Source: Pleurocapsa sp. FMAR1
Lineage (GTDB): Bacteria > Cyanobacteriota > Cyanobacteriia > Cyanobacteriales > Xenococcaceae
Reading direction: 5' to 3'
Assembly (NCBI RefSeq): GCF_963665995.1
Contig: NZ_OY762512.1
Coordinates: forward strand, 2,294,001-2,358,000
DNA length: 64,000 bases
The notes under the pieces are model-generated. The model worked only from the letters and a program-made list of their open reading frames with translations. It searched no databases and had not been told where the DNA came from. How positions within the stretch are numbered: the first letter of the stretch is position 1; each line of letters starts with the position of its first letter. This document shows positions 35,611 through 51,288 of the stretch, piece after piece. The translations under genes and the position numbers were made by a program.

Positions 35611-36078
35611 TCAATCTCGCTTCATGGCTCTTGCCATAGATCTTTCATCGTCGCGTTTTTTCGATGTTTCTCGCTTGTCGTGTAGTTTTTTACCTTTGCC
35701 CAAACCGACTACAATTTTAACTCTTCCTTTTTTGAAGTACATTTTCAAAGGAACAAGTGTCAGACCTTTTTGTTCGGTTTGCCCAATGAGTTTGTTGATT
35801 TCTTTACGGTGGAGCAGTAATTTACGAACACGGCGAGCCTCATGGTTAAAATGAGACCCTCCTGCTTGATAGGGAGAAATATGAACATTACTTAACCAAG
35901 CTTCACCGTTTTTGATGAAAGCATAGCCATCTCTAAGGTTGACTTTTCCTGCTCGGATTGACTTTACTTCTGTACCAACTAATTCAATTCCTGCTTCGTA
36001 GGTTTCTAGAATTTCGTAAAGATAACGAGCCTGACGATTATCACTAACAATTTTGACTCCTGGGTTATTTTCAGCCAT
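35611..36078 (-). CDS. smpB: SsrA-binding protein
   Basis: SmpB binds tmRNA and delivers it to stalled ribosomes for trans-translation. The 155-residue protein has the OB-fold core with NRQARYLYEILETYEAGI near 14-31, GTEVKSIRAGKVNLRDGYA near 36-54, and the basic C-terminal tail KGKKLHDKRETSKKRDDERS that folds into the ribosome A site. Length and motifs are standard. The tmRNA gene itself was not found in this window. Confidence 0.96.
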   Translation of the reverse strand: MAENNPGVKIVSDNRQARYLYEILETYEAGIELVGTEVKSIRAGKVNLRDGYAFIKNGEAWLSNVHISPYQAGGSHFNHEARRVRKLLLHRKEINKLIGQTEQKGLTLVPLKMYFKKGRVKIVVGLGKGKKLHDKRETSKKRDDERSMARAMKRD

Positions 36079-36156
36079 GCTTGTACATCTAAATTCTGGA
36101 CTTGTTGAGGACTTATTAGTATATCATTCAGCTTTTAGTAGGGCTTGTCATTACTA

Positions 36157-36852
36157 CTAAGGACAGTTTTCAGGATCGCAAGAAACTTCTATAGCTGCGA
36201 TCGCTGCATCATCACGATATTTATCAGTCACATAAGAAACACCTGGATAGTCGGCATAAATACCAGAAAGTTCCGTTCCATCGGCAGTTAATTCAAAGTT
36301 GGAGGCTCTAAAACGAATATTTTCTGGCTTTTGATCTTCAAACGTTACGTATTCACTTGATTCGCCTTCGGTGTTGTATGCCAACACGGCATTTCCATAA
36401 GTTTTTTCTGCCTCTTTGATTGGCATACCTGCTTTGATTCCTGCTTTAGTTTGATAGCGATCGTTGTCCGTCAATAACATAGTAATAGGGTCGTCATCAT
36501 TAGGAGTTGCCTTATTAGAGTCAGAAGTCGTTTCTACTGGGTAAAGAATATAATATTGAACTATATCTTTTTTAGTTACGGCGATCGCATTGGTATCAAC
36601 CGTAAAAGACGATATCATTTCAAATTTGGTATCTGGATCTGATATTTGCTTTAATTGACCCAAAGTCATGCCAAGCTTGGCTTTTCCTATGCCACTAGAA
36701 GATATAAGAACTTTTTCTTTTATCGTTGCTGTATTAACTTGGCTAATCTTCACACCAGATTCAGTAGAGCTAGCATCCTCAGATTGAGTATTAATAGTTT
36801 TGGCTTGACAAGCTGACAAAAGCAGCAAGACTAACAAAATAATTCTTTTCAT
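36157..36852 (-). CDS. Lipoprotein of unknown function
   Basis: This is a 231-residue secreted protein with a short hydrophobic signal and lipobox LLSAC (Cys15). Two similar stretches, SGIGKAKLGMTLGQLKQI (about 53-70) and AGIKAGMPIKEAEKTYG (about 137-153), suggest an internal duplication of a small beta-alpha unit. A Cys-containing C-terminus (EVSCDPENCP) ends it. I do not recognise the family. It lies downstream of smpB's 5' end on the same strand with 78 bases between the genes. Confidence 0.75.
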   Translation of the reverse strand: MKRIILLVLLLLSACQAKTINTQSEDASSTESGVKISQVNTATIKEKVLISSSGIGKAKLGMTLGQLKQISDPDTKFEMISSFTVDTNAIAVTKKDIVQYYILYPVETTSDSNKATPNDDDPITMLLTDNDRYQTKAGIKAGMPIKEAEKTYGNAVLAYNTEGESSEYVTFEDQKPENIRFRASNFELTADGTELSGIYADYPGVSYVTDKYRDDAAIAAIEVSCDPENCP

Positions 36853-37572
36853 TGAAATATCGTAACTTTTTAAGTTGATAAATATCTGAATTTTTGAGAT
36901 TTAAAAAAGAGATGTTTTTATAATATTTAATATTTTATATTCTCAGCATCAAAATATCACCATTTAATTGCTATAGTTTTTTAATTTACTTAATATCTTA
37001 TTTATTAATCTTAGCTATATAAAAATTAAGCTCAAAACAAAAAAACAAACTCGATCATAAATTTGATTAGATCTTGTCTAAAGCATAAATTAGGCAAATA
37101 CGTAATTAACCGAGCTGCGAACATAAAGAAGATATATAGTAAATCAAAGTACAGCAGCAATTATGCTCGATTAATCAATGTATCGAAGTTTAATCTATAC
37201 TTTCGGCATATTCTATTGAGTTAGAGTAATAATAGATGTTGTTCATTTAAAGTATAAAACAGATAATATGGTAAATACTTAGTCACTTTTTTGTATTTTA
37301 TCTAATCAGTTTTTTGTATGCTCGATAAATACTGTTTAAACATCTAAGATATAATTAGCGAAAAAACATTCTTTGGCAGATGCAGGCTATCATATTTTTG
37401 CCTAGATTATTTTGTTTTGGGGCTTCAGACAGAACTCTTTTGAACTACATTTTGAAATTTTGGCGATCGCCAATCAAGGATTTTTGCTCAGAACATATCA
37501 ATTTACCCAATTATCTTGATTGATAACTCCATTGATGTTCTACTTATTTAAATTAACTTAATTGCTAAAAAA
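36853..37572. other. 720-base AT-rich intergenic region
   Basis: This long gap separates the divergent lipoprotein and deaminase genes. It is very AT-rich with many short A/T runs and no open frame or hairpin that I can support. It is the left border of the accessory region. Confidence 0.5.
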
Positions 37573-38013
37573 ATGAATCACGAAAAATTCATGAATGAAG
37601 CACTAATCGAAGCAAAAAAAGGTGATTTGCCTTATGGTGCAATAATTGTTAAAGATAATGAAATTATTGTTCGTGGTTACAACACAACCCAGACAGACAA
37701 TGATGTTTCGGCACATGGAGAAATTAATGCTCTACGTACCTTTACCAAAAAAAAGGGCTATTCATTAGATGTTCTTTCTGGCTATGTCTTATATACCACC
37801 TGTGAACCTTGCCCTATGTGTTCAGCAGCTTGTATTTGGGCAGGAGTATCTAAAGTTGTTTTTGGGGCATCAACACAACAGTTAATTGATTTAGGTATAA
37901 AACAAATAAATATATCATGCGAAACTGTCGCCGAAAAAGGATTTCAAAAGATGGAGGTTGTCGGCGGTGTTTTAGCTGATGAATGTTTGGAATTATTTAG
38001 ACAGCTTGAGTAA
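37573..38013 (+). CDS. Nucleoside/guanine deaminase-like protein
   Basis: This is a 146-residue zinc deaminase of the cytidine deaminase-like fold. Zinc ligands and the proton-shuttle Glu are in SAHGEINAL (His48, Glu50) and TTCEPCPMCSAAC (Cys80, Cys83), followed by WAGVSKVVFGA. The arrangement fits guanine deaminase/TadA-type enzymes; the length and lack of basic tRNA-binding residues favour a free nucleobase or nucleoside substrate, but that is inference. A partial MITE-like end follows at 38026. Confidence 0.87.
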   Translation: MNHEKFMNEALIEAKKGDLPYGAIIVKDNEIIVRGYNTTQTDNDVSAHGEINALRTFTKKKGYSLDVLSGYVLYTTCEPCPMCSAACIWAGVSKVVFGASTQQLIDLGIKQINISCETVAEKGFQKMEVVGGVLADECLELFRQLE

Positions 38014-38197
38014 ACTACTCAATTTGGCGTTGCTGATTTAAGTAATGATCTAACCTTCCATGTCTGGTTTTGTATATAACTTTGCAACCCTACATCATTG
38101 TTTAAAGATTAGGATGACTATTGGGTATCAGTAATTCTAAATTTCTAGTTTGGGTGTTCTATATTAGTAGAGTAATCTAAGCGATCGCATTTCAATC

Positions 38198-39589
38198 ATG
38201 GCAGTTTCACCCAACTTTGCTTTTTTAGGGGTTCATGATGCCCAGTTAGTCAACATAGCAACTCTAGCAGAGAAATACTTTAGAGATGACCCTGTTACCT
38301 GTTTGATTAAGCTAAGGCAATTTGGAGAATTATTAGCACAGTTAGTAGCTGCCAATGTCGCTTTGTATACTAATCCTGATGAATCACAGTCAGACCTACT
38401 TAATAGATTACAGTCGCAAAACTTACTACCTGGGGATGTTAGAAATCTCTTTCATCAATTGCGAAAGTCTGGTAATGATGCGGTTCATAATAACCAAGGG
38501 AATCATGGTTTAGCTCTACATCACATAAGATATGCAAGAGAACTTAGCATCTGGTTTCATCGTACTTTTAGTAATGATAGCTTTAGACCAGGGGCTTTTA
38601 TTCCCCTACATGCGGGCTAGCCCTTTGTAATCCAGAAAAGGAAACAGAAACCCTAAAAGAAGAATTAGCACGTCTGAGACAAGAAGCAGAAGCAAGTAGA
38701 AGTCAAGTTGAGTTAGCAGAAGCTAAGGCTTTAGAAGAGACGGAATTAAGACAGTTAGCCGAAGAATTACTAGAAGAAGCAGAAGCAGAATTAAAACAAC
38801 GATTAACTACAATTCAATCCTCAACTGCTAACAAGTCATCGAAACTAATTCAGCAAACTATTAGTGCTGCTAACGATGCCGAACAACAAATAGATTTAGA
38901 TGAGAATGAAACTCGTCGGTTATTAATTGATACCAAGTTAAGAGAAGCTGGTTGGGAGGTAAATTCAGATAATCTTACTTATACTAAAGGTACAAGACCC
39001 CAGAAAGGAAAAAATATAGCGATCGCCGAATATCCAGTTAAGCAGGGAAGGGCTGATTATGCTTTATTCGTGGGACTACAGGTAGTAGGTGTAGTAGAAG
39101 CCAAACGTCACAGTAAAGATGTCTCAGGAGATATTGCCCAAGCTAAAAGATATAGCCAAAATTATCTAATCAAAGGAGATGAAACCTTATGTGATGATCG
39201 ACCTTGGGGAGAATATAAAGTACCGTTCGTCTTTGCTACTAATGGTAGAGAGTATCTAGAACAGTTAAAAACTAAAAGTGGTATTTGGTTTTGTGATGTT
39301 CGCAATCCTTATAATCTTAGCCGTCCGTTACAGGGTTGGTATAGTCCACAGAGTCTAGTTAAGTTACAACAAAATACTTGCTTCTAGAAACTGGAAACCA
39401 CCACTGCGTAAATGGTTAGAAAGAATTGGTAAGCAGTTAAAGCAGGAAACTGTAGTTGATAGAGAAGCCTTTGACAAAGGGCAGTTTGAAGCTCAAGGTG
39501 GATTTAAACGGATTAATCAAACTTTTGCTGGTGAGTTAGAAACAGTATTAAGTGAGATTAATCAAGAATTGTGGCAAGAGAAGGCGTAA
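38198..39589 (+). pseudogene. hsdR: Broken hsdR of a type I restriction system (helicase deleted)
   Basis: Three collinear pieces of one HsdR are seen. 38198-38620 encodes the N-terminal DUF4145-like domain (MAVSPNFAFLGVHDAQL...). After a frameshift near 38610 a second frame runs 38629-39387 with a long coiled coil and the nuclease domain (ETRRLLIDTKLREAGWEV, GRADYALFVG, VGVVEAKR). After a further break at 39385 a third piece encodes the HsdR tail (KWLERIGKQLKQETVVDREA), ending at 39589. The whole helicase region, several hundred residues, is missing. The subunit cannot function. Confidence 0.85.
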
Positions 39590-39689
39590 TGATTCAAATC
39601 ACATATTTTATATTTGAAATTGTATATGTTGGTATTTAAGTTACAAAAACACAAATTAAAACTTTTAAAACTTGAAACAGCATATAGTT

Positions 39690-39899
39690 ATGGAAACTCA
39701 AACACTTAATAATTCTATTACATTTAAAGGCTTTGTTATCGCTTGCATTATTTTAATACCCCATTGTGTATATTCGTTTTATAAAATAGTGTTCCGTAAA
39801 AAGTATTTTAATATTCCGCCAACAAAAAATATGTTTTGGTCTCTTATGCAATTTATATTTTCAATACTAGAGTTTGTAATGGACCTCTTGCATAAATAG
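39690..39899 (+). CDS. Small membrane protein A in the type I locus
   Basis: This 69-residue protein (from ATG 39690) has a TM segment (about 12-32, FKGFVIACIILIPHCVYSF), a basic loop (FRKKYFNIPPTKN) and a second hydrophobic or amphipathic helix (MFWSLMQFIFSILEFVM). The last six residues (MDLLHK) are encoded by one end of an inverted-repeat element. The family is not recognised. It sits between the broken hsdR and hsdM with a second small membrane protein gene of similar design. Confidence 0.55.
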   Translation: METQTLNNSITFKGFVIACIILIPHCVYSFYKIVFRKKYFNIPPTKNMFWSLMQFIFSILEFVMDLLHK

Positions 39900-39976
39900 A
39901 AGATTAATATATTTTCCCTTTAACCTTTCCCCTTTTCCCTCTTGGCAAGCTAGTTCATTATGATTCGTGCAAGAAG
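39883..39976. repeat. Inverted-repeat element between two small membrane genes
   Basis: ACCTCTTGCATAAAT at 39883-39897 and ATTCGTGCAAGAAG at 39963-39976 are imperfect inverted repeats (about 11 of 14 matching) about 65 bases apart, with a pyrimidine-rich interior. The same ends occur at 51289-51352. One end forms the last codons of the upstream gene and the other the first codons of the downstream gene. MITE-like remnant. Confidence 0.6.
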
Positions 39977-40151
39977 TCTAATGGTTATACAATTAGCCAT
40001 ATTAATATTGCCAATATATGCTTTGTTCGATATCTATATGCTAATTGTATCTTATTCTCAAGAATCATTTATTGAAGCTACTGAAGGGGCTTTTGTGGAA
40101 TTTATCGATGCAATTTTAAAATTATTTAACTTACACAACACGGAAGATTAA
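39960..40151 (+). CDS. Small membrane protein B in the type I locus
   Basis: This 63-residue protein has one TM helix (about 9-31, VIQLAILILPIYALFDIYMLIV) and an acidic amphipathic C-terminal helix (GAFVEFIDAILKLFNL). Residues 1-6 (MIRARS) are encoded by the end of an inverted-repeat element, so the original start may be Met8. Its overall plan, TM followed by an amphipathic F/L-rich helix, resembles the preceding small protein. No family is recognised. Confidence 0.5.
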   Translation: MIRARSLMVIQLAILILPIYALFDIYMLIVSYSQESFIEATEGAFVEFIDAILKLFNLHNTED

Positions 40152-40283
40152 AGCGGTCACTGAAAGAAACAAAGAAAAGCCTATGATTATGTAATTATAA
40201 AAAAACTAAAATAATTGTTGGCAATTTTAAGCTTTGGTAATTAAAATGTTACTTTATCTGAGTGTCTTTTTTACCGAGATTGA

Positions 40284-41739
40284 ATGAACGTTACTACTGA
40301 TATTGTTGCTAAACTCTGGAGTCTATGTAATGTACTGCGGGATGATGGGATTACCTATCTACAGTATGTTACTGAGTTAACCTATCTTCTGTTTCTCAAG
40401 ATGATGCAGGAGACAGGGAAAGAAGATGTATTACCAGAAGGCTATCGGTAGGATGATTTAGTTAGTAAAGAAGGTATCGAACAGCTTACTTTTTATCGAG
40501 CATTGCTATTAAAGCTTGGTTCGGAATCAGCTAGCGATCGCATACAGGCTTATTTTTGCTAATGCTCAAACTGCTCTCAAGAAACCAACGAATCTAGCAA
40601 CAATAGTAACTAGCCTTGATTCTCTTGATTGGTATTCAGCTAAAGAATAAGGCTTGGGGGATTTATACGAAGGGTTGCTAGAAAAGAATGCTAGTGAAAA
40701 GAAATCGGGTGCGGGTCAATATTTTACGCCACGTCCTTTAATTGACAGCATGGTAGCTTTAATCAAACCTCAAGCAGGAGAATTAATACAAGACCCCGCA
40801 GCAGGTACGGGAGGGTTTTTGATTACTGCCGATAAATATATTAAGCAGCAGACAGATAATTTATTTGACCTATCAGTAGACGAACAAAACTTTCAAAGGG
40901 ATAAGGCATTTTACGGCATCGAATTAGTGCAGGACGCTCATCGCTTGTTACTGATGAATATGATGCTACATGGCATTGAAGGAGAGGTAGGTTTAGGAGA
41001 TAGCCTATCAGCAGACGGGCAGAGATTACGCAAAGCAAATGTAATTCTAACTAATCCTCCCTTTGGCACAAAGAAAGGAGGGGGTAAACCTACCAGAGAT
41101 GATTTTACTTACCAAACCTCTAACAAACAGCTAGCATTTTTAGAACATATTTATCGAGGGTTATTACCAGAGGGAAGGGCAGCAGTTGTATTACCTGATA
41201 ATGTTTTGTTTGAAGATGGACAGGGGCGGAACATTAGGGCTGACTTGATGGATAAGTGCAACCTTCATACTATCCTGCGTTTACCGACGGGTATCTTTTA
41301 CGCTCAAGGAGTTAAAACTAATGTTCTATTTTTCCAACGAGGTACAACAGAGAAAGGAAATACCAAGGAAGTTTGGTTTTATGACTTAAGAACTAATATG
41401 CCTTCCTTTGGTAAGCGTACTCCTTTTACTAAAAAGCACTTTGAATACTTTGAGATATGTTATGGCAATGACCCTAATGGCAAGAGTCCTCGTCAGGATT
41501 TAGGAGAGTCAGGGCGGTTTAGATGCTTTAGTCGGGATGATATTACTAAACGAGGAGAGAACCTAGATATATCTTGGTTACGGGATGAAAGTTTACAAAG
41601 TGCTGAAGACCTACCCGAACCTGATGAAATAGCAGCAGAGATTATGATGAGGTTACAAACAGCAATGGAAGATATGGAAGCTTTAACCGAGTTGTTAGAT
41701 AATCCTGGTGTTGAAGAAGAAGCGCACCGCCCTGTCTGA
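40284..41739 (+). pseudogene. hsdM: Broken hsdM of a type I restriction system
   Basis: This is the DNA adenine methyltransferase subunit of the type I system, decayed. The N-terminal part starts at ATG 40284 (VAKLWSLCNVLRDDGITYL) and has an in-frame TAG at 40449 where a Trp codon is expected, an extra base near 40551 that shifts the frame, and an in-frame TAA at 40648. From 40654 a 361-codon open frame carries the intact catalytic part: YFTPRPLIDSMV, the SAM-binding PAAGTGGF and the catalytic NPPF. Its last codons run into a palindromic repeat. Full activity is unlikely. Confidence 0.88.
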
Positions 41740-41765
41740 GGTTTCCTCAGACGTAAGGACGGAGC
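41724..41765. repeat. Palindromic repeat at the 3' end of hsdM
   Basis: GCACCGCCC-TGTCTGAGG and CCTCAGAC-GTA-AGGACGGAGC form an imperfect stem around a TTT loop. The GAGG-TTT-CCTC centre is shared with the insertion in the hsdR remnant at 24305-24344. It supplies the last codons and stop of the hsdM frame. Confidence 0.65.
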
Positions 41766-41805
41766 AAGAAGTTTGATAATAGATGAAGAAGTAGATAGTT
41801 TAATT

Positions 41806-42027
41806 ATGAATACAGAAGAGAAAGTTATCAAAAAACTGAAGAGGTTTTCGTTAGAAACACAACAAGAGGTATTGCAGTTCATGGAATTTTTAGAATTTCG
41901 CAATCAATCTCTTAAGAAAAAAACTGATATATCTGCTTTAGAAGCTGCGGGAACTTTAGTAGGGTGCTTGGAAGCAGCAGAGGATTTATCTACCAACAAA
42001 GATTATCTTAAGGGATTTGGTCAGTAG
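41806..42027 (+). CDS. VapB-like antitoxin
   Basis: This 73-residue protein (from ATG 41806; a TTG at 41773 is an alternative) resembles small DUF2281/VapB-type antitoxins: IKKLKRFSLETQQEVLQFMEFLEF is the common helical motif, and the tail (SALEAAGTLVGCLEAAEDLS) would wrap the toxin. Its stop overlaps the next GTG by one base, as in vapBC pairs. The partner toxin is reduced to its first residues in the following chimeric gene, so the antitoxin is probably an orphan. Confidence 0.65.
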   Translation: MNTEEKVIKKLKRFSLETQQEVLQFMEFLEFRNQSLKKKTDISALEAAGTLVGCLEAAEDLSTNKDYLKGFGQ

Positions 42028-42290
42028 TGTACCGTCAAGTTTTATTGGATACGGGTTCATTAGTTGCTTTACTCAATCGTCAATATCAGTCAGTAAATGA
42101 AGCTATTAATGCTGGATTGAAATTATTAATGGAACAAGAGCTTATTTATCAGGGGCGTTTTGCCGAACTCAGACAAGAAATTATGGTAGGGATTGAGGCA
42201 TCCCAAAGAGGTGAGGTTGTAGATAGCGAAACTGTTTTTAATTCCATTCAAGAGAAATTAGAACAGCGTCGCCATCAAGCAGAATCATGA
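42027..42290 (+). CDS. Chimera of VapC N-terminus and ParD antitoxin
   Basis: This 87-residue frame starts at GTG 42027. Residues 1-18 (YRQVLLDTGSLVALLN) are the first strand and helix of a PIN-domain VapC toxin, including the first catalytic Asp. From about residue 20 (YQSVNEAINAGLKLLMEQE ... GRFAELRQEIMVG) the sequence matches a ParD-type antitoxin lacking its N-terminal DNA-binding strand. The junction is in frame, implying a deletion that joined two toxin-antitoxin loci. Neither original function is expected to be complete. Confidence 0.7.
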   Translation: MYRQVLLDTGSLVALLNRQYQSVNEAINAGLKLLMEQELIYQGRFAELRQEIMVGIEASQRGEVVDSETVFNSIQEKLEQRRHQAES

Positions 42291-42424
42291 GCAATATTTG
42301 TCGTTTTACTGTTCCTGCTAGTAGAGACATTGAAAGTATTATCGCCATGAAATTAATTTCATGGCTTAAACCCAAAGTCGGTTTAAACCGACTTAAAATG
42401 TTAGGCAGAGAATTTATTCTTTGA
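42287..42424 (+). pseudogene. Truncated parE toxin
   Basis: A frame overlapping the ParD-like stop by 4 bases (ATGA) begins MSNICRFTVPASRDIESIIA, the start of a ParE/RelE-type toxin. After 20 residues the sequence runs directly into a hairpin repeat (from 42345) and ends at 42424. The toxin core is absent. The repeat appears to have replaced or cut the rest of the gene. Confidence 0.65.
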
Positions 42425-42425
42425 C
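42345..42425. repeat. Three-hairpin repeat, copy A (upstream of transposase)
   Basis: Hairpin 1 is a perfect 20-base palindrome (42345-42364, CCATGAAAT/ATTTCATGG), hairpin 2 is AAGTCGGTTT/AAACCGACTT (42375-42394) and hairpin 3 is AGAAT-TT-ATTCT (about 42409-42420). It lies 40-120 bases before the Y1 transposase and joins the truncated parE. It is the most divergent copy. Confidence 0.8.
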
Positions 42426-42466
42426 TTCGTTAAATGTAGCAAAAAGCGATCGCATTTAAAATTAAT

Positions 42467-42928
42467 ATGGCTCTGTGGCGTTTATATTATCATTTGGTTT
42501 GGGCAACAAAAGAAAGACAACCATTGATTGACAGTAAACGTGAAGCTCGGCTTTATCCTTATATTGTGAGTAAAGCAGATTCTCTAAACTGTATTATTCA
42601 TGGCATCAATGGAACAGATAATCATATTCATGTAATTGCTTCAATTCCGCCCAAAATGGCGATCGCAGAATTTGCTAAACGTATCAAGGGTAGTAGTTCG
42701 CATTACCTAAATCAAAATTTTCCCAATCCGACTAAATTTGCTTGGCAAGAGGGTTACGCCGTATTTTCTTTAGGTGCTAAACAATTAGAAACTGCGATCG
42801 CATATGTTGAAAATCAAAAAATACATCATCAACAAAAAACCATAATTTCTATATTAGAACGAATTGAACACGACGACCATCCTCCTAAATCTCATAGATC
42901 GTCAAAACAAGCGTCACAAGATGATTAA
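42467..42928 (+). CDS. IS200-like Y1 transposase (RAYT type)
   Basis: This is a single-strand DNA transposase of the HUH Y1 class, 153 residues, slightly longer than minimal IS200 TnpA. The metal-binding HUH motif is HIH at 53-55 in GTDNHIHVIASI, and the nucleophile Tyr is probably Y113 in AYVENQKIHH. WRLYYHLVWATKERQPLI at the start is typical of the group. No TnpB is linked. It is flanked by copies of a structured repeat, as in REP-associated tyrosine transposases, which act on such hairpins. It appears intact. Confidence 0.87.
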   Translation: MALWRLYYHLVWATKERQPLIDSKREARLYPYIVSKADSLNCIIHGINGTDNHIHVIASIPPKMAIAEFAKRIKGSSSHYLNQNFPNPTKFAWQEGYAVFSLGAKQLETAIAYVENQKIHHQQKTIISILERIEHDDHPPKSHRSSKQASQDD

Positions 42929-43030
42929 ATAGCTTACCCACAAATCACCATGAAATCAATTTCGTGGCTCATGCACCAAGTCCGTTTAAACCGACTTAAG
43001 ATATCAGACGGGGAATTTATTCCCTGGCTG
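42923..43030. repeat. Three-hairpin repeat, copy B
   Basis: This 108-base unit starts GATTAAATAGCTTACC (overlapping the end of the transposase gene) and contains hairpin 1 CCATGAAAT/ATTTCGTGG (one G-T pair), hairpin 2 AAGTCCGTTT/AAACCGACTT (one mismatch) and hairpin 3 GGGGAAT-TT-ATTCCCT with outer CAG/CTG. Confidence 0.85.
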
Positions 43031-43093
43031 TCTAATGTATTGGGTAACTGATCTTAAATTGGTTTCTCTTTTTGACTGATATTTATCATTTAA

Positions 43094-43200
43094 GATTGAA
43101 TGGTTTGCCTACAAATCACCATGAAATTAATTTCATGGCTCATACACCAAGTCCGTTTAAACGGACTTAAGATATCAGACGGGGAATTTATTCCCTGGCG
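43094..43200. repeat. Three-hairpin repeat, copy C
   Basis: Same unit as copy B, 171 bases further on. Hairpin 1 is perfect (ATTTCATGG) and hairpin 2 is the perfect palindrome AAGTCCGTTT/AAACGGACTT. Hairpin 3 is identical to copy B. The DNA between the units is not repeated. Confidence 0.85.
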
Positions 43201-43279
43201 GGTTGATTGCACTGGGTCATAAATTTCGGATAGGTTCGGGTTTCGAGCGATAGATGTTTGTTGTTTGAGATTTAAAAGA

Positions 43280-43386
43280 GATTAAATAGCTTACCCACAA
43301 ATCACCATGAAATCAATTTCGTGGCTCATACCCCAAGTCCGTTTAAACGGACTTAAGATATCAGACGGGGAATTTATTCCCTGGCT
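43280..43386. repeat. Three-hairpin repeat, copy D (before hsdS)
   Basis: Same unit, 186 bases after copy C. The left flank and hairpin 1 match copy B, hairpin 2 matches copy C. It ends 46 bases before the hsdS start. The 504 bases from the transposase to hsdS contain only these units and their spacers. Confidence 0.85.
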
Positions 43387-43432
43387 TTTTAGTTGATTGA
43401 TGTTTATTGTTACAGGGTGAGGAGAGATTAAG

Positions 43433-44878
43433 TTGAGTTTAAATATTCCTGAGAGTTGGACATTAGCAGAACTAAAACAATTGGGAAAAATTGTAACAGG
43501 TTTTACTCCTTCCAAGAAAAATTCTCAATTTTATGGAGATATTATTCCTTTTTACAAACCAACGGATTTAGATGCTGGTTATGAAGTTATAGAGGCTAGA
43601 GAATATTTATCAGAATTAGGTGCAAGTAAAAGCAGACTGTTACCACCTTTTTCTATTTTGGTGACTTGTATTGGTGCTACTATCGGGAAAACTGGATTAT
43701 CACAAGCAATTTGCACAACCAATCAGCAAATTAATTCAGTAATACTAGAAAAATACATATTTTCCCAATGGCTGTTTTGGTTTATTAGCAGTCCTCAAGG
43801 ACAAAAATTAATTATTAATAACGCTTCTGCTACCACTTTGCCCATTCTAAATAAAACACGCTTTAGTGAATTAAAGTTTCCCCTACCACCTCTCAACGAA
43901 CAAAAACGCATCGTAACTAAAATAGAAGCCCTACAAACAAGAAGCACCACAGTAAAAAAAGAACTAGAAGCAATTAAACCTCTACTAAATCAATTCCGTC
44001 AATCTGTTCTGGCTGCTGCTTTTCGTGGTGATTTAACTAAAGACTGGCGATCGCAAAACCCCGATGTTGAACCTGCTTTAAAACTTATACAATCTAATTC
44101 TGATATAGTATCAAACTATCTACCTATTAGTTGGTGTCAAGCTTTAGTAGGAGATGTTGTTGAAAACTTGAAATATGGAACATCAAAAAAGTGCCGTTAT
44201 GAAATAGATGGTATTCCAGTGTTACGTATTCCTAATATTGTTGATGGAACTATAAACCATTCAGATTTAAAATATGCACAATTACCAGATAAAGAATTTG
44301 ACAAGCTAAGATTAATTTCAGGAGACATTCTGATGATTAGGTCAAATGGAAGTGCGTCTTTAGTTGGTAGAACAGCCATTATTAGAGAAGCTGAAAAAGA
44401 TTTTGCTTATGCTGGATATTTGATTAGATTAAGACCAAACAAAGGATTAGTTTATCCTGAATATTTGAATTTGTGGTTTTCTAGCTATGAAATTAGATTA
44501 CAGATAGAAATTCCTTTACGTTCAACAAGTGGAGTCAATAATATCAACAGTGACGAAACTAAGAAACTCAATATTCCAATTCCACCACTTCAAGAACAAA
44601 AAGAAATAGTCCGCCGTATAGAATCACTATTCAAACTAGCAGACAACATCGAACAACAATACCAACAAGCAGAAATAGATTTAGAAACCCTCAACCAATC
44701 CATCTTAGCTAAAGCCTTCCGAGGCGAACTTGTTCCCCAAGACCCCAACGATGAACCAGCATCAGTATTATTAAAAAGGATTAGGGAAGAAAGAGAAAAA
44801 GCAACAGCTAAGAAATCTAAGACGAAGAAAACAAGTAGTAAGAAGCAAGACAAACAATTAGGCATACCAGGAATATAA
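43433..44878 (+). CDS. hsdS: Type I restriction specificity subunit
   Basis: HsdS recognises the split DNA target of a type I system. The 481-residue protein has two target-recognition domains (about 1-160 and 225-400), each followed by a conserved helix: FPLPPLNEQKRIVTKIEAL near 155-175 and IPIPPLQEQKEIVRRIESL near 382-402. The central and C-terminal LAAAFRGDLT and LAKAFRGELVPQDPNDEPA mark the HsdM-contacting regions. Start is TTG 43433, preceded by GAGGAGAG; no closer ATG exists. It is intact although hsdM and hsdR are broken. Confidence 0.93.
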   Translation: MSLNIPESWTLAELKQLGKIVTGFTPSKKNSQFYGDIIPFYKPTDLDAGYEVIEAREYLSELGASKSRLLPPFSILVTCIGATIGKTGLSQAICTTNQQINSVILEKYIFSQWLFWFISSPQGQKLIINNASATTLPILNKTRFSELKFPLPPLNEQKRIVTKIEALQTRSTTVKKELEAIKPLLNQFRQSVLAAAFRGDLTKDWRSQNPDVEPALKLIQSNSDIVSNYLPISWCQALVGDVVENLKYGTSKKCRYEIDGIPVLRIPNIVDGTINHSDLKYAQLPDKEFDKLRLISGDILMIRSNGSASLVGRTAIIREAEKDFAYAGYLIRLRPNKGLVYPEYLNLWFSSYEIRLQIEIPLRSTSGVNNINSDETKKLNIPIPPLQEQKEIVRRIESLFKLADNIEQQYQQAEIDLETLNQSILAKAFRGELVPQDPNDEPASVLLKRIREEREKATAKKSKTKKTSSKKQDKQLGIPGI

Positions 44879-44938
44879 CTAAGCAAATTTAGAAATTAAT
44901 TACCAGTATTTCGAGTTTTTTTAGGTAGAGCTACTTAA

Positions 44939-45775
44939 ATGGTCGAGGAAAAAAAACAAAATCTATCTTATTTTGCCGAATTGAATCCTATTTATCGATT
45001 CAAACAAGTACCAAAAGTCATAATTCATAATACTTATTCGAGTTCATCAAGTTTAAATCGAGATTCAATCAAAGTTTTGAGTTGGAATATCGCTAAAAAC
45101 AATTACGACCCAAGCTGGAGCAAAGATTTTTTGGCAATTGTCGATCGCTATCAACCAGATAAAATCTTTTTGCAAGAAGTTCGTCTGCGTGCTGATGTCC
45201 AAGAAATTGCCGAATTAACCCAAATGGGTTGGGCTTTTGTCCCTAACTTCATTGATGTCTCAAACAATACCTATTCAGGAATTCTAATTGCTAGTCAAGG
45301 CGATCGCATCTCTAAGCAAGCTGTAATTACCAAGCATTACGAACCAGTTACTAATACCCCGAAAGTTTCTTTATTTACCGAGCATTCTTTAAGCGACTGC
45401 CCCCAAAGCTTGTTAGCCGTTAACACTCATTTGATTAATTTCGTTAATCTAAGTAAATTCAAAGCTCAACTACAAGAAATTGAGTCAATACTCAACGAGC
45501 ATCAAGGGGCAATAATTTTGGCAGGAGACTTTAATATCTGGAATAAATCTCGATGGCAGATATTATCTCAAATGGCAGCTAGGCTAAATTTAACCCCTGT
45601 ATCTTTTACCACCGAAGATACTAAAAAAATTAAAAACTTTCTATTATCTCCACCGCTAGATTATATCTTTTATCGCGGATTTGCTCCAAAGCTACACACT
45701 GCCAAGGTGATAGATAATATCTCTTCTTCAGATCACAATCCTCTTTTTGTAGAGCTTTGCTTAAATAGAGACTAG
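44939..45775 (+). CDS. Endonuclease/exonuclease/phosphatase-family protein
   Basis: This is a 278-residue Mg2+-dependent phosphoesterase of the EEP (DNase I-like) superfamily. Signature blocks are VLSWNIAKNNYD near 43-54, IFLQEVRLR near 77-85, LAGDFNIWNKSRW near 198-210 and SSDHNPLFVEL near 263-273. The D-x-N and terminal S-D-H residues are the metal and catalytic sites. There is no signal peptide. The substrate may be a nucleic acid, a phospholipid or an inositol phosphate; the sequence does not decide. It converges with the AI-2E-family gene with 4 bases between the stops. Confidence 0.85.
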   Translation: MVEEKKQNLSYFAELNPIYRFKQVPKVIIHNTYSSSSSLNRDSIKVLSWNIAKNNYDPSWSKDFLAIVDRYQPDKIFLQEVRLRADVQEIAELTQMGWAFVPNFIDVSNNTYSGILIASQGDRISKQAVITKHYEPVTNTPKVSLFTEHSLSDCPQSLLAVNTHLINFVNLSKFKAQLQEIESILNEHQGAIILAGDFNIWNKSRWQILSQMAARLNLTPVSFTTEDTKKIKNFLLSPPLDYIFYRGFAPKLHTAKVIDNISSSDHNPLFVELCLNRD

Positions 45776-45779
45776 ACGA

Positions 45780-46829
45780 TTACTTCCCTTGTTTAGTTGT
45801 CTCTTCATCCCCCGAACCTAGCAATGAAGCAACTAGCTGAGTTTGCGGGAATGGTTCTAAGACGAGCTTTTTTACCATTACCGTCAGAGGCAAAGCCATA
45901 AAAGCTCCAATAGGACCCAAGATCCACGTCCAGATAATAACTGCCAAGAAAGTTACCAGCACAGATAAGTCTAACCCTTTAGCAAGAAAGCGAGGGGCAA
46001 CTACAACATCGAAGAAGTTGTTAATTAAAGCGTAAACAACGCCCAAGATTACTGCTTGCCATAACCCCTGATTGAGAAGGGTTAATAATACTGGTGGTAT
46101 GAGGGCAACGTAAAAACCGATATTTGGTACAAAGTTAAATAAGAATGAAAGGACTCCCCACAGTACGGCAAACTGCACCCCCATAATCCACATCAGAATA
46201 ATTTGACAGATAGCTGTTAAAGCACCCACCCAACTCTTAATCGCTAGATAACTGGTTGTACTTTGAGCAAAATCCTGAAATTGCCCTAGCAGGGGTAAAT
46301 TGTTTCCCAGTCCTCGGCGCAGTTGCGCTGCAAAAGTTGGTGCGCTTGCCAGCATATAGATAAATATTAAGAATGTCAGCCCAATATTGGAGAAAATACC
46401 TAGTAGTGATGAGACAAAAGACAGTACCAACTGAATTATTCTTTCTGGTTGAAACCATTGCAGGGAGCGAATATCTTCTGATTCTACGCCTCGCTCATTA
46501 AGCCACTGCCACAAGTTGTTAAGCTGTGCCTCGGTTTGGTTAACATAATTAGGTATCACATCTGAAAGCTGTTCAAAAGAGATGGTAAAAAAGAAAACAA
46601 AGAATGCACCCAAGACCAGGACAATAAGTAGCACGGTCACATATGCCAACCAGTGAGGAAAACCGCGCCTTTTTAGCCATGTCATAATCGGATATGTCAC
46701 CAGCACAATGAACAAAGAAAGCAATATAGGACTCAACAAGCCTGACATCGCCTTAAGCCCCGCAACAATTAGCACCAAGCTAGCAACATCTATTAGTAGA
46801 GAAGTAATATTGCGCTTTTGGGTTTTCAT
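45780..46829 (-). CDS. AI-2E/PerM-family membrane transporter
   Basis: This is a 349-residue polytopic membrane protein of the PerM/AI-2E family. Hydrophobic segments cluster at about 10-45, 60-85, 140-165 and four more between 200 and 335, with the family pattern FNFVPNIGFYVALIPPVLL near 235-253. Members export small molecules or ions in various bacteria; specificity is unknown here. It is a single gene. Confidence 0.85.
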   Translation of the reverse strand: MKTQKRNITSLLIDVASLVLIVAGLKAMSGLLSPILLSLFIVLVTYPIMTWLKRRGFPHWLAYVTVLLIVLVLGAFFVFFFTISFEQLSDVIPNYVNQTEAQLNNLWQWLNERGVESEDIRSLQWFQPERIIQLVLSFVSSLLGIFSNIGLTFLIFIYMLASAPTFAAQLRRGLGNNLPLLGQFQDFAQSTTSYLAIKSWVGALTAICQIILMWIMGVQFAVLWGVLSFLFNFVPNIGFYVALIPPVLLTLLNQGLWQAVILGVVYALINNFFDVVVAPRFLAKGLDLSVLVTFLAVIIWTWILGPIGAFMALPLTVMVKKLVLEPFPQTQLVASLLGSGDEETTKQGK

Positions 46830-47138
46830 AAATACTTTCTCTTTAGGGCTATTTTGGTCAATGTATATTGTTAGAGGGAATATATATTATTGTTTGTCCT
46901 GATTGCACCTATCTATCTATAGAGCTTCAATTTGACGACAGATTATATACTGAATGCTAGTAGCTCGGATCGAAAATGTCTACTCTGGTTGCTAATTATA
47001 CCGCTGAGAGAACTAAATGAAGATGTTTAAGCAATTGCGTAGCTAACAGAAGGCATTGCTAATAACTTTTTTTCAATCTTGCTTAGGAAAATTAGTCTAT
47101 AGTTAATCTCAGATATTTTTAAAACGGCATCAGCCTAT
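46830..47138. other. 309-base intergenic region
   Basis: This gap lies between the divergent AI-2E-family and envelope-protein genes and must hold both promoters. No gene or hairpin was recognised. Confidence 0.45.
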
Positions 47139-47834
47139 ATGAGATTATTTCCGTTAGTTTTAATTGGTAACTGTTTATTTCCAAGTTTATTAGTTTCTCC
47201 TGTTACCGCTCAAGAGAGAAATTCTGAAGAAGACAGCAAGATCGATATTCCTTTAAAAGATATTGAGCAAAGTCCCGTACTGCAAGAATGGTTAGATAAA
47301 GTACCAAATGTATTAGAAGAAATAAAACAAGATCCTGCTTTTGTGACTCGTTTGCGACTAGGTTTTGCAGTCTTTCCCTCTACCGATGATGCGGGTGGAC
47401 TTAATGTGGGAATTGAAGATATTTTTATTGAGCGCACTGGTTTAACTATTAGTGCCGATTATCAGACGGCATTTAATGGCGATCGCAATGCTGTTGGTGC
47501 GGACTTACACTACTTTCTCTTACCCCTTGGTGGCTATATTAATTTTGCGCCGATGGTTGGCTATCGCTACGTACAAAGCAACGACTTTTCTACCGACGGA
47601 GTTCATCTAGGAGTTAGATTAATGTTAACCTTTTCGCGGACGGGAGGCGGTGATATTTCTGTATCCCAAAGCTTTATAAGTCCAGGGGGCAGTGAGGAAG
47701 TAGGAATTACCTCTTTTTCTGCTGGTTATGCTCTGACTTCTCATTTACGTTTGTCAGGGGAGATCGAAAGGCAAAATTCAGTTGAGGATGAAGATAGTCG
47801 CGCTGGGCTGAATTTAGAGTGGTTATTCTACTAG
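47139..47834 (+). CDS. Predicted outer-membrane beta-barrel-like protein
   Basis: This 231-residue protein has a signal peptide with likely cleavage after VTAQ (about residue 25). The mature part from about 70 on alternates short strands rich in aromatic and Gly residues (LRLGFAVFP, GLTISADYQTAF, LGGYINFAPMVGYRYV, LGVRLMLTFSRT, LRLSGEIERQ, LNLEWLFY), ending in an aromatic residue as outer-membrane proteins do. I do not recognise a named family. It begins a probable three-gene operon (15- and 23-base gaps) with a DUF2993 protein and a PI-PLC-like protein. Confidence 0.7.
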   Translation: MRLFPLVLIGNCLFPSLLVSPVTAQERNSEEDSKIDIPLKDIEQSPVLQEWLDKVPNVLEEIKQDPAFVTRLRLGFAVFPSTDDAGGLNVGIEDIFIERTGLTISADYQTAFNGDRNAVGADLHYFLLPLGGYINFAPMVGYRYVQSNDFSTDGVHLGVRLMLTFSRTGGGDISVSQSFISPGGSEEVGITSFSAGYALTSHLRLSGEIERQNSVEDEDSRAGLNLEWLFY

Positions 47835-47849
47835 AAATCGAGCAGATAA

Positions 47850-48743
47850 ATGGAATTATTAGTAAGTATCATGTCGGCAATACTGGCGATCGCAACTTCG
47901 GTTAATGCGGTGGGAGATGAGGTTTTGAAAAATAAGCTTGAATCCCAGATAAAGTCAGTAGATACTATTGCAGTGCGGATCGATAATGCTCCCAATCATG
48001 ACATTTTAGGGGGAAAAGTAAAGCGTGTTAGAGTTGCCACCCGCAATTTGCAAATTAGTCAAGCGATCGCTTTCAAAGTTCTAGAATTAGACGTAGACGG
48101 GATTGACATCAAGCTCAAGGAATGGTTACAGCAAGATATACTAACAGAAATTGATGGTGTTCCTACCCTGAGACTGCGAGAACTATTTGAACAACCAGTT
48201 AACATCGCATCGAGGGCGGTTTTGACTCAGGAACAACTCGATAATATGCTGCAATCTCCGTTTATCAATAGAACTATTAGACGGCGATTACAGCAAACTC
48301 TCAATCGAATAGCCGAAAAGAACTATAGACAAGAAGATTTTGAAATTTCTAGTTTTGCCTTAGATTTAATTGACGAAAATCGCATTGCTTTAAGAATGAA
48401 ACTTTCTGGTTTCGACCCTGAAGATGGTAGCAAGGATGCAGAATTAAATGTAGATTTTGAGTTTGCCTTAGAAGTTATTGATGGCATTAGTTTTAGATTA
48501 ACCGAGCAGCAGGTATTTATTGACGGAGAAGAAGTTGAACCCGAACAGGGGGTGCTTGTTGTCGCACCCGTTACTCTTAAAGCCTTAGAAGAGGTAGGAA
48601 TTAAAGTTAGAGTGCTTGAGTGGGAATCTAACCAAGATGAACTTGAGTTAGCTCTGTTTATTAGCGCAAATAGATTTGCAGCTACCGCACTACTAGATGC
48701 ACGTGACCTAATTAAAGCTGCTGAACTGTTTCTCGATGAGTAA
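47850..48743 (+). CDS. DUF2993 (LmeA-like) lipid-binding protein
   Basis: This 297-residue protein is of the DUF2993 family, whose best-known member LmeA binds phospholipids and acts in the cell envelope. The N-terminus (MELLVSIMSAILAIATSVN) is a hydrophobic signal or anchor. The body contains the characteristic LESQIKSVDTIAVRIDNAP, GKVKRVRVATRNLQI and VLELDVDGIDIKL blocks (about 30-90). Its place between an outer-membrane-like protein gene and a secreted phospholipase-like gene supports an envelope-lipid role, as inference. Confidence 0.8.
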   Translation: MELLVSIMSAILAIATSVNAVGDEVLKNKLESQIKSVDTIAVRIDNAPNHDILGGKVKRVRVATRNLQISQAIAFKVLELDVDGIDIKLKEWLQQDILTEIDGVPTLRLRELFEQPVNIASRAVLTQEQLDNMLQSPFINRTIRRRLQQTLNRIAEKNYRQEDFEISSFALDLIDENRIALRMKLSGFDPEDGSKDAELNVDFEFALEVIDGISFRLTEQQVFIDGEEVEPEQGVLVVAPVTLKALEEVGIKVRVLEWESNQDELELALFISANRFAATALLDARDLIKAAELFLDE

Positions 48744-48766
48744 ATTAAGCTTCTAGATAATAAATT

Positions 48767-49921
48767 ATGAAAAAATGTATCTGGGGCGGTGCTGTAGTCA
48801 GCGTAATAACTCTAATTAGTCTGTTTTCTAAAACTATTAAGGCTGAAGTTAAATTTCAACCTCAAGACCTGAAACTCAACCAAGTGCAATCTCTTGGTAC
48901 TCATAACTCTTATCATATAAGACCTGCGCCTAGTTTATCTAAGGCTTTATCAGATGCTAACTGGTTAGCAAGAGTATTATTAGGAACTTTTGAATATACT
49001 CATTCATCGTTATCCGAACAATTCGATATGGGTGTTCGGCAAATAGAGCTAGATATGATGTTAGATCCTGAAGGGGGTTTATATGCCAAACCTCTTGGAG
49101 ATTCCTTGGTCGAGAAGAGTGGTCTACCTGCTGACCCCGACTTCGATCCCGATGGAGAGATGAAGCAGCCAGGATTAAAAATAATTCATATGCAGGATTT
49201 TGACTACCGAAGTACCTGTTTGACCTTTACCAAATGCTTGCAAGAAATGAAAACCTGGTCGGATAAACACCCTCAGCATTTACCGATTGTGGTGTTAATT
49301 GAAGCCTCGAATAAAACTTATCCCAGGATGGTAATACCAGACAAAATGACCTTAGATCTTACCAAGCCAGTTAAGTTTGACGCTCAAAATATTAGCCAGA
49401 TCGATAAAGAAATAAATGCTGTCTTCGATCGCCAAGAATTGATCGTTCCTGACGATTTGCGCGGTAATTATTCAACTCTTAGACAAGCTATTAAAAATGA
49501 AGGCTGGCCCACCCTAGCGTCAGCTAGAGGAAAAATGATTTTCTTGATGGACAATCGCAGCGAACTCTATTTAGAAAGATATCCAGAAATGAAAGGAGCA
49601 ACTCTATTTACCACCGCCAGAGAACCAGGAGAAAATGAGGCGGTATTCATCAATACTAACCAACCGAGGATAGATATCCCCAGCATGGTTAGGGATGGAT
49701 ACATAGTTCGTACTCGTGCCGATGCAGACACTTTAGAAGCAAGAGTTGACAGTACCGAAAAACGTGAAGCAGCAATTAGAAGTGGCGCACAATACGTTAG
49801 TACTGATTTCCCCGACCCTAGCGAATACTTCTCAAAATTTAAGCGATTGTTTCCTGGAGATGCTTTAGTTCGTTGTAATCCCTGGAACACCGATAAAAGC
49901 TGTCATATTGAGGATAAGTAA
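48767..49921 (+). CDS. Secreted PI-PLC-like phosphodiesterase
   Basis: This 384-residue protein has a signal peptide (about 1-26). The catalytic TIM barrel of the Ca2+-dependent PI-PLC1-like family follows: SLGTHNSYHIRPAP near 43-56 with the catalytic His, FDMGVRQIELDMML near 85-98 with acidic ligands, IIHMQDFDYRSTC near 142-154 with the second His, and LPIVVLIEASNK near 177-188. It should cleave phosphodiesters of lipid or glycerophospho-compounds in the periplasm or outside. It is the last gene of the envelope cluster. Confidence 0.85.
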   Translation: MKKCIWGGAVVSVITLISLFSKTIKAEVKFQPQDLKLNQVQSLGTHNSYHIRPAPSLSKALSDANWLARVLLGTFEYTHSSLSEQFDMGVRQIELDMMLDPEGGLYAKPLGDSLVEKSGLPADPDFDPDGEMKQPGLKIIHMQDFDYRSTCLTFTKCLQEMKTWSDKHPQHLPIVVLIEASNKTYPRMVIPDKMTLDLTKPVKFDAQNISQIDKEINAVFDRQELIVPDDLRGNYSTLRQAIKNEGWPTLASARGKMIFLMDNRSELYLERYPEMKGATLFTTAREPGENEAVFINTNQPRIDIPSMVRDGYIVRTRADADTLEARVDSTEKREAAIRSGAQYVSTDFPDPSEYFSKFKRLFPGDALVRCNPWNTDKSCHIEDK

Positions 49922-50115
49922 TTCAGATAGCCTACAGTTAATTTCAGGGATTTTTTGATCCCTCATAAGTTTTTTTGTAACCTTCTAACATTCTTCTGTC
50001 ACTCTCCGAAATCAAGAACTAACAAATGAGGTTGCCAAATAAAATAAAAGAAGAATCTAATTAGGGTATAAAGCGATCGCTAATATTGAAACAACACCAG
50101 CTTTTTTGATTAACA

Positions 50116-51246
50116 TTAACATACAGTATTTTTTCTTTGTTGAAATAGATTTATGATTTCTTGAGAAATATCAGAAGGCATTTTTTTGATTCTAGAGTTA
50201 ACGTTAATTATGTAATGAGGAGGCTTTTCTATTTCTAGAAATTCTAGAACCTGATTTGTTTGTGAGAGAGCATCTTCGATAATATCTTCGTAGCTCAATA
50301 TTAAAGGTTCTATTTTGTTATCTGCTAATATTTTTTTTAAACGAGCCTCTTGATGATTAATGAAATCAATTTTTTGTTCGATATTGTTAAGTAGAGCATC
50401 ATTAATAGTAATATCTTTTAATTTTGATTGATATTTGATATTATTAGAAACGTCGCGAATATGCCAAATCTCGGTTTGTTGAGCTAAAACCAATGATACT
50501 GCTTGTGCCAGTTTATTTCTTCTAGTCAAAAAAATAAATTTATTTAAAGAATTAAATATCTGCTTAAAATCAAATTTAGTTTGTTTAAAATCAAATAAAA
50601 AATGCGATATTAATTTAGTACCAAAAACTCCATTATCTGTAGTACGGTATTGTAATAAGTTATCAAGCAATCTTAAATAATCAAAATCACAGTATCGCGC
50701 TAGCTGTTGAGCAGCAAGCCTCAAATGTTCTGCTGGATAGCCAGCAATTCCTGTAGATTCTAGTAGCTCACAAAAATAGGTTGAACCAGAGCGAGGGGTT
50801 GTTACAATTGCGTAAGTTACTTTAGGCTTAATAATCTGTTCAGATGAAGGTTGTAATAGCTGTCTTTTGCAAATGAGGTTGATAAAGACATCTGCAAAAA
50901 GTCGTAATGGAGTTACCTTTATTTTGAGTTCAATAGCTTTTTGCTTTACTCGCTCAAACAAAGCAGCTTCATCTTTAAAAGATGCCACAATAATTGCTTG
51001 ATATTTATCTACTTCAGTTTTTTGAGCAAATATGTCATCTAAGTTCCCAATAGATAGATCATAGTAATAGTTGTTATCAACCTGCTGATGTTTTTGAAAA
51101 AACTCTTGAAGATATTGTAAGATCTCAGTCTCGCCTACAAAAAACAATCGATTTTGAGATGATAATTGTTTTAAAAACTGTGTTTCTTCTATAGCTTGAA
51201 ATGTTTGAGCTAATTTCATATCAATTTCATTATGGTAACCAACCAA
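50116..51246 (-). CDS. Stf0-like sulfotransferase
   Basis: This 376-residue protein has an N-terminal domain of about 140 residues of unknown role followed by a PAPS-dependent sulfotransferase. The 5'-phosphosulfate loop is IVTTPRSGSTYFCELLES near 149-166, and the Stf0-type features GYPAEHLR, VFGTKLISHF and IFLTRRNKLAQAVSL follow. LILSYEDII near 316-324 fits the late conserved block. Stf0 sulfates trehalose in mycobacteria; here the substrate is unknown. It is longer than Stf0 because of the extra N-terminal domain. Confidence 0.83.
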   Translation of the reverse strand: MVGYHNEIDMKLAQTFQAIEETQFLKQLSSQNRLFFVGETEILQYLQEFFQKHQQVDNNYYYDLSIGNLDDIFAQKTEVDKYQAIIVASFKDEAALFERVKQKAIELKIKVTPLRLFADVFINLICKRQLLQPSSEQIIKPKVTYAIVTTPRSGSTYFCELLESTGIAGYPAEHLRLAAQQLARYCDFDYLRLLDNLLQYRTTDNGVFGTKLISHFLFDFKQTKFDFKQIFNSLNKFIFLTRRNKLAQAVSLVLAQQTEIWHIRDVSNNIKYQSKLKDITINDALLNNIEQKIDFINHQEARLKKILADNKIEPLILSYEDIIEDALSQTNQVLEFLEIEKPPHYIINVNSRIKKMPSDISQEIINLFQQRKNTVC

Positions 51247-51288
51247 CGTTCAGGTTAAATCTGACCAACACTCTTAAGTTAGCCTAAA

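Follow-up and report, generated by a model that had tools for sequence, protein, structure and literature searches.

The genome of Pleurocapsa sp. FMAR1 (5.43 Mb, a single contig) contains, within the stretch of 64,000 nucleotides analysed here (the window), a gene for a Y1/HUH transposase, tnpA, accompanied by structured repeats (Table 1). As the original prediction held, the gene, whose reading frame is open throughout, is preceded by one and followed by three direct copies (A–D) of a unit with three hairpins, all in the same orientation. The unit had been put at about 107 bases; it exists, but its hairpin core measures only about 80 nt, the larger figure counting flanking sequence. The placement of the array between hsdM and hsdS was likewise borne out, with toxin–antitoxin remnants on the left side, as was the absence of TnpB: no TnpB-like ORF was recognized by eye among the ORFs listed for positions 36000–52000, seven of which were scanned for domains.

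Table 1. Features of the tnpA locus (positions in the window)
Feature	Position	Strand	Remarks
HsdR-like piece and HsdM N-terminal-like piece	39070..40653		stops and frame changes (by eye)
hsdM without N-terminus	40654..41739	+	left neighbour; in-frame stop just upstream
toxin–antitoxin remnants	41773..42344		nested between hsdM and hsdS
VapB-like antitoxin (DUF2281)	41773..42027	+	PF10047 27.9 bits; NF050009 22.2 bits, below cut-off
ParD-like antitoxin ORF	42027..42290	+	TIGR02606 20.8 bits, below cut-off of 46.2
5′ remnant of toxin gene (presumably parE)	42287..42344	+	cut at foot of unit A hairpin 1
unit A	42345..42424	+	hairpins 42345–42364, 42375–42394, 42406–42424; first base is the putative left insertion junction
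tnpA, Y1/HUH transposase	42467..42928	+	153 aa; HIH, WQ, YVENQKIHH; PF01797 105.5 bits, NF033573 93.3 bits
unit B	42948..43027	+	hairpins 42948–42967, 42978–42997 (one C-C mismatch), 43009–43026
unit C	43119..43198	+	hairpins 43119–43138, 43149–43168, 43180–43197
spacer between units C and D	43199..43304	+	repeat family D4, two copies
unit D	43305..43384	+	hairpins 43305–43324, 43335–43354, 43366–43383
hsdS	43433..44878	+	right neighbour; PF01420 120.3 bits

The left end of the array adjoins the remnant of a toxin gene that we take to be parE. In six parE genes of other genomes, of which five have an open frame and one (L428) lacks it in the frame tried, homology to the window ends between positions 42342 and 42350, and in four of the six exactly at 42344; the next base, 42345, begins hairpin 1 of unit A. 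A seventh parE locus (L434), which diverges earlier, at 42308, was left out of this comparison. No further part of parE was found within the window, where the left junction alone is visible. Judged from these alignments, the module appears to have broken parE, its left edge coinciding with the foot of the first hairpin; parE could also have been cut by another event ending at the same point. Two relatives (G496 and G522) carry hsdM, toxin–antitoxin-type genes (some of which are named here by assumption) and hsdS without tnpA, and in another (G006) tnpA, with one unit before it and five after, likewise adjoins hsdS. A search for an empty site via the argS/ABC-transporter neighbourhood of G007 and G008 returned none, and no argS end was found upstream in the other 22 of 24 loci, some of which had only short upstream DNA for this motif search. 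Farther to the left, the type I restriction system, that is hsdR and the start of hsdM, looks decayed. The first 19 residues of the ParD-like ORF match a VapC-like start (a 19-aa match in L425), pointing to a possible fusion by deletion.

Inside the array, part of the spacer between units C and D (43249–43285) is 76% alike to the leader of hsdS (43395–43431). Because of this resemblance, the array probably grew by duplication of a unit together with the leader, and its spaced arrangement looks like the outcome of such tandem duplication rather than of separate insertions.

Pfam and NCBIfam both place the window protein among the IS200-type transposases. Its tyrosine motif, together with WQ, is the published signature (Y---Q--HH) of TnpA_Y1 subclass 1.2, which the available part of the defining survey describes as IS200-related, with no IS properties, no REP and a specific C-terminal domain of 30 amino acids that has its own HMM (PMC6006769). 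Both motifs are kept in the aligned relatives, one of which has YH for HH, and residues H53, H55, Y113 and Q117 are invariant among 21 aligned proteins. The HuH motif reads NHIH in the window and NHIH, NHVH or DHIH in the relatives, the published form being DH[IV]H, and the C-terminus is partly conserved in the clade and modelled with low confidence. An AlphaFold model of the protein (mean pLDDT 86.3) has the TnpA proteins of IS608 and ISDra2 as its closest solved structures; the best Foldseek match is IS608 TnpA (E = 3.3e-10), and TnpAREP follows at rank 30 (E = 4.8e-6). A tree of 53 proteins was rooted on a single class 2 sequence with a very long branch, L272 and L313 being left out. Support of 97/88 separates the other 11 IS200 controls in it from a group made up of 36 QxxHH proteins, four divergent relatives and L005; the closest named relative of the window protein there comes from a Xenococcus MAG. 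By its motifs and fold, the window protein is best classified as a TnpA_Y1 of subclass 1.2 and not as a RAYT. A second QxxHH transposase is encoded in the same genome (L005, positions 1086847–1087191 of G000); it carries YIRNQEDHH and is short after this motif.

The gene keeps a low copy number. Within the family, one match at E <= 1e-30 was found in each of eight out of 27 genomes, two of the eight genes having in-frame stops, and of 386 genomes drawn from the phylum 23 have 1–3 matches at E <= 1e-40. The copies that share a genome (five pairs in three genomes) are 61–88% identical. Multiple near-identical copies, as expected of IS200/IS605 insertion sequences, were seen neither in the family genomes nor among these five pairs.

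Folded as single-stranded DNA, each copy adopts the three predicted hairpins, separated by linkers of about 10 nt, and does so better than all of its 200 shuffles (z of −6.2, −3.3, −6.2 and −4.2 for A, B, C and D, respectively). Hairpins 2 and 3 had been proposed to covary, and both compensated changes are present: hairpin 2 has a G-C pair in A and a C-G pair in C and D, with B, as stated, an intermediate carrying a single C-C mismatch, and hairpin 3 has an A-T pair in A and a G-C pair in B, C and D. Within the window, however, the evidence is thin, one base pair per change and 2 of 23 predicted pairs. The broader claim that structure, and not sequence alone, is kept became firmer once relatives were included. 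In a set of 18 units taken from six genomes (L221 and L117 lie on one contig, and the unit there was counted once), 95.8% of the cells are paired, and 6 of 25 pairs are changed on both sides, in 26 cells, these being sequences and not events; five tandem copies of one genome have one change in common. The covariation score is 0.218 against 0.105 in shuffles, none of 500 shuffles scoring as high, and reaches at most 0.066 in slid controls; two of the five covariation measures are unremarkable against the shuffles (pairs changed on both sides, 32 of 500 as high; further pair types, 170 of 500). Pairing survives sequence change.

Comparison of the units reveals a common anatomy. In each half-unit a linker of about 10 nt, for which cyanobacteria commonly have TAATAGCnAA, joins the outer hairpin to an inner one, often of the form AGTC...GACT. 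In several lineages, as seen from the printed flanks of 12 loci and from the linkers, two inverted half-units form a full unit of four hairpins, in the order outer, TAATAGCnAA, inner, spacer, inner, TTnGCTATTA, outer. In the window family the inner hairpins are fused into one, giving the condensed three-hairpin form; three Chloroflexi loci (L264, L279 and L285) show a three-hairpin form with other stem sequences and linkers of 8–10 nt. The commonest tips of the outer hairpin, GAATAAATTC and GAATGAATTC (30 and 23 of 182 distinct pairs), are asymmetric, so that a hairpin would suit them better than a two-fold site for a dimer binding double-stranded DNA.

The claim that the units belong with the transposase held repeatedly, over the family, the phylum draw and a set of 80 loci, and the association is real. 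Matches to a model of the unit lie beside tnpA at all seven other family loci (the weakest best match, at L118, has E = 4e-8). Of 26 additional loci from the phylum draw, 25 have model matches at E <= 1 in the fetched flanks; the flanks of L136 gave no model match, yet hairpins are present there. Genome-wide, the model found matches in 8 of 8 family genomes with tnpA versus 6 of 19 without it. The linker motif gives a weaker indication, having been drawn from loci of the first group: it occurs in 18 of 22 genomes with tnpA and in 9 of the 20 without it that were listed individually.

Because any hairpin might score well with a model built from hairpins, the association was also tested without a model, on 80 of at least 548 confirmed loci from a scan over the genomes of 84,980 species (this set and the set of genomes with G handles have six loci in common, and the two are not added up). 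Strong hairpins number 2.05 per kb near tnpA, 0.23 far from it and 0.11 in shuffles, a count that sets gene-near DNA, richer in intergenic sequence, against all far DNA; for this reason the gap between neighbouring hairpins is the sharper test. Pairs of hairpins with a linker of 7–12 nt, drawn from several phyla, number 110 in 92 kb of near DNA versus 16 in 597 kb of far DNA, and gaps of 9–11 nt number 79 (8.59 per 10 kb) versus 10 (0.17 per 10 kb). At least one linked pair lies near tnpA at 49 of the 80 loci, and at 29 of 33 in the family and phylum set. By taxonomic group, assigned by hand from record titles, such pairs occur at 34 of 47 loci of cyanobacteria, 10 of 22 of Chloroflexi (Thermomicrobiales included), 2 of 3 of Desulfobacterota, 1 of 5 of Bacteroidota/Ignavibacteriota and 2 of 3 of others, the test being empty near tnpA at 13 cyanobacterial, 12 Chloroflexi and four Bacteroidota/Ignavibacteriota loci.

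No linked pairs were found beside 17 ordinary IS200 genes of subclass 1.1, which include copies of one element (three from G016) and were chosen from 34 control loci, the others being 13 unassigned by motif, three QxxHH and one NP. Triples of hairpins behave similarly at a strict setting, with 43 near tnpA, counted whether inside or outside ORFs, at 26 of the 80 loci (35.6 kb outside ORFs), versus one far from it (75.7 kb outside ORFs); one of the 17 subclass 1.1 controls (L003) also has a strict triple. At the laxest setting 156 triples were counted near and 262 far, and because lax triples are not specific, only the strict setting and the linker-gap test were used. Three-hairpin units are absent in the vicinity of L005, and the triple test detected none at two further control loci of the 1.2 type. 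L139 was left out of the triple test on controls and of the doublet test, and L144, which is unoriented, out of the inspection of flank hairpins.

A search of the window genome with the unit model, aimed at dispersed copies, located 11 further places at E <= 0.05, two of which are single hairpins. The original prediction, which likened the units to transposase-bound REP elements, had proposed a search for such copies; dispersed copies do exist, but 32 of 49 places sampled in the family (nine from the window genome and 40 among the best matches of G001, G006–G010, G014, G019 and G026) lie between both ends of a MITE. These T1 ends, a 17-bp inverted repeat CAGGGCTATTTCATTCT (up to five mismatches), are both present in the 32, one is present at 13 places (some at contig ends) and none at four. 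The T1 elements are mostly 132–134 bp in size, and 18 of 28 have a target duplication of 9–10 bp with at most one mismatch, four MITEs without 10-nt flanks having been left out, compared with 1 of 756 mispaired flanks. Given the DDE-type ends and the duplications, the last move of these copies was not made by the window transposase. In G407, five of nine copies inspected have both ends of another MITE, T2 (ATTGGTGTCAACTTAA), three with 9-bp duplications, and in G126 all three copies have AGACCTCTTGCAAAA ends and 3-bp duplications; units are hence carried by at least three types of DDE MITE ends, with target duplications of 9–10, 9 and 3 bp. One copy in G094 (L374) has T1 ends. Outside the window family, an outer inverted repeat of at least 14 nt was detected in 10 of 42 pieces with a recognized unit, a lower bound because L385 was missed in spite of both T2 ends (three of 45 pieces, having no recognized unit, were dropped); the rest look bare or decayed, and the statement that dispersed copies are mostly in MITEs holds for the window family only. 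At the thresholds used, units are plentiful in three genomes without detected tnpA (G014, 53 model matches; G065, 49 motif matches; G094, 91), G065 having no Y1 match at E <= 1e-10, which argues that units outlive the gene or spread without it. At three additional places where the window genome matches the terminal repeat perfectly, inspection of the surrounding listed ORFs by eye revealed no transposase that could be an autonomous partner of T1.

Several known systems invite comparison. As described in the available part of the survey (PMC6006769), subclass 1.2 has in common with the window the WQ and Y---Q--HH motifs, low copy number, an occurrence in Cyanobacteria and Bacteroidetes, and a relationship to IS200 without the IS habit; it is described there as having no REP and generally no typical IS200 end structures, whereas here there is a cognate composite hairpin unit, present also with the relatives in Chloroflexi and Desulfobacterota. 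We read the units beside subclass 1.2 genes as a correction of that description and not as exclusion from the subclass. The REPtron, a RAYT with its REPs and REPINs, resembles the window, in the available parts of the sources, in having a single-copy Y1 gene flanked by palindromes (PMC6006769, PMC3116915). Here, by contrast, Y---NP and the GT[AG]G foot are lacking, the half-unit pairs two hairpins across a linker of about 10 nt, and many dispersed copies reside in DDE-type MITEs. REPINs, like the window-type units, are symmetric and composed of two inverted halves. IS200/IS605 elements, compared through the familiar features of IS608 and ISDra2, provide the closest solved structures and have the same HUH/Y1/Q active-site residues, but no high-identity copies and no nearby tnpB were seen here, and the ends differ. 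The Type II MITEs of Anabaena sp. 90, small cyanobacterial elements of which one group has three sets of inverted repeats and for which there is no IS with the same ends, are compared with the hairpin-cored MITEs by description alone; they may be the same kind of element, although the available part of the source describes no link to a Y1 transposase (PMC3542288). The GTAG-15 dimers of Anabaena variabilis are, as here, palindromic repeat dimers within larger palindromes, but according to the part of the report available they are GTAG-tagged REPs of another transposase class (PMC3733652). In the open-licence literature searched, mostly at the level of listings, no prior report of repeats cognate to subclass 1.2 was found.

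The locus is probably a REPtron-like system in which a transposase of subclass 1.2 has a type of DNA repeat to itself, the units of which were later spread by DDE MITEs; in its working such a system resembles a REPtron, without belonging to the RAYTs. This reading draws on the recurrent association with the gene, the fixed spacing and kept pairing of the hairpins, the conserved catalytic residues, the single-copy habit and the left junction in parE at a hairpin foot. By analogy with IS608 TnpA and TnpAREP, TnpA would bind the hairpins on single-stranded DNA and Y113 would cut beside the foot of a hairpin; this would allow units to be moved, rarely together with tnpA. The array would have grown as a unit and the hsdS leader were duplicated in tandem. 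Most of the dispersed copies sampled in the family last travelled as the core of a DDE-type MITE. Against the REPtron-like reading stand the units without the gene in G014, G065 and G094, the stops in two family genes, the loci negative in the doublet and triple tests, the unit-free L005 and the two other 1.2-type loci lacking triples, the strict triple at the control L003, the intergenic richness of the near DNA in the hairpin counts, and the other possible cause of the cut in parE. A more elaborate version, which we hold to be doubtful, is a two-step mobility in which the subclass 1.2 HUH transposase makes, keeps or places the symmetric multi-hairpin unit and unrelated DDE transposons repeatedly adopt it as a MITE core; the transposase would perhaps insert units at the tip of the hairpin that a MITE forms on folding, or the core would perhaps let one element use both enzymes.

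The other explanations differ in what they take the hairpins to be. Were the locus an ordinary, slow IS200-type insertion sequence, A and B would be its left and right ends, the enzyme would move A-tnpA-B, and the other units would be decayed or duplicated ends. The structural proximity to IS608 and ISDra2 TnpA, the units on both sides of the gene in L112, L113, L114, L116 and L117 and the left junction within parE at a unit end agree with this. It is nonetheless unlikely, given that each of the eight family genomes with the gene has a single tnpA match, that L115 (G012) has, by the model, a unit on one side only, and that the units are two-fold symmetric and arrayed, which LE and RE of IS608 are not. 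The 61–88% identity of copies within a genome likewise contrasts with the mean of 99.4% given for subclass 1.1 in the available part of the survey (PMC6006769). The original prediction itself took the gene for a RAYT with REP elements. Repeats that flank the gene and are dispersed as well, a trait of RAYT/TnpAREP systems, are indeed present beside a single-copy gene, many of the dispersed copies lying within MITEs, but Y---Q--HH replaces Y---NP, a search on both strands within 8 nt of each of the window's 12 hairpin feet gave no GT[AG]G, and the structure sides with IS200. The signature makes the label RAYT wrong, and the motif, foot and structure tests rule out a RAYT/TnpAREP identity, leaving this reading next to no probability.

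It is also very improbable that the units are merely pieces of DDE-type MITEs that collected beside tnpA, to which the transposase is unrelated. The 32 sampled family copies with both MITE ends and the abundance of units in three genomes without a detected gene would fit, as would the downstream unit of L130, itself a MITE of the G126 kind. Yet a scan of 32 tnpA loci found none of the three MITE ends at 31 of them, an outer inverted repeat of at least 14 nt was found in none of 23 chosen tnpA-linked units (L130 not among them), and in Chloroflexi the gene is again accompanied by this architecture, built from different sequences; for tnpA-linked units we reject a MITE-only origin, L130 excepted. 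Finally, the hairpins might function at the RNA level, serving around hsdS as terminators or as structured transcripts, their adjacency to tnpA being secondary. They are predicted with RNA parameters as well and lie between co-oriented genes, but positions 42200–43500 gave no Rfam match up to E = 1, the fold is nearly equal on both strands, since model matches come on both strands of one place, and units adjoin tnpA in differing gene contexts, so that a role in RNA appears scarcely credible.

Subclass 1.2 was left without a substrate in the available part of the survey that defined it (PMC6006769), and a cognate hairpin unit would make its function testable with short oligonucleotides. The architecture of this unit is kept across phyla while its sequence changes, and the system would add a second lineage of Y1 enzymes with its own repeats, on the IS200 side of the tree. 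Some of the small repeats that cyanobacterial genomes contain would find an explanation in the repeated packing of units into unrelated MITEs; the dispersal of a repeat should not be credited to a neighbouring transposase without inspection of the ends of the copies.

Some of the MITE-related sequences show further structure. An element of about 570 bp is present in two copies of opposite orientation (L149 1237–1806 and L150 1203–1772, corresponding to positions 4286736–4287305 and 4556002–4556571 of G000); its ends, GGGCTGTTTCATTCT, are close to the MITE ends, and it contains one small coding-like ORF and no transposase that we could see. In the MITE copies L039, L040 and L041 (G000 70781, 4600866 and 4208512), hairpin 1 holds an extra hairpin, ACGAGCGACC or GCGAGCGACC ... 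GGAACGCGCGAG, a second small palindromic repeat nested in the first, and L076 has similar sequence near 1660–1715. In G407 (L384–L386 and L392), the T2 MITE is enclosed by a palindrome of the type GTAGGGGCGCACAGCTGT, which seems to be a separate repeat that served as its target.
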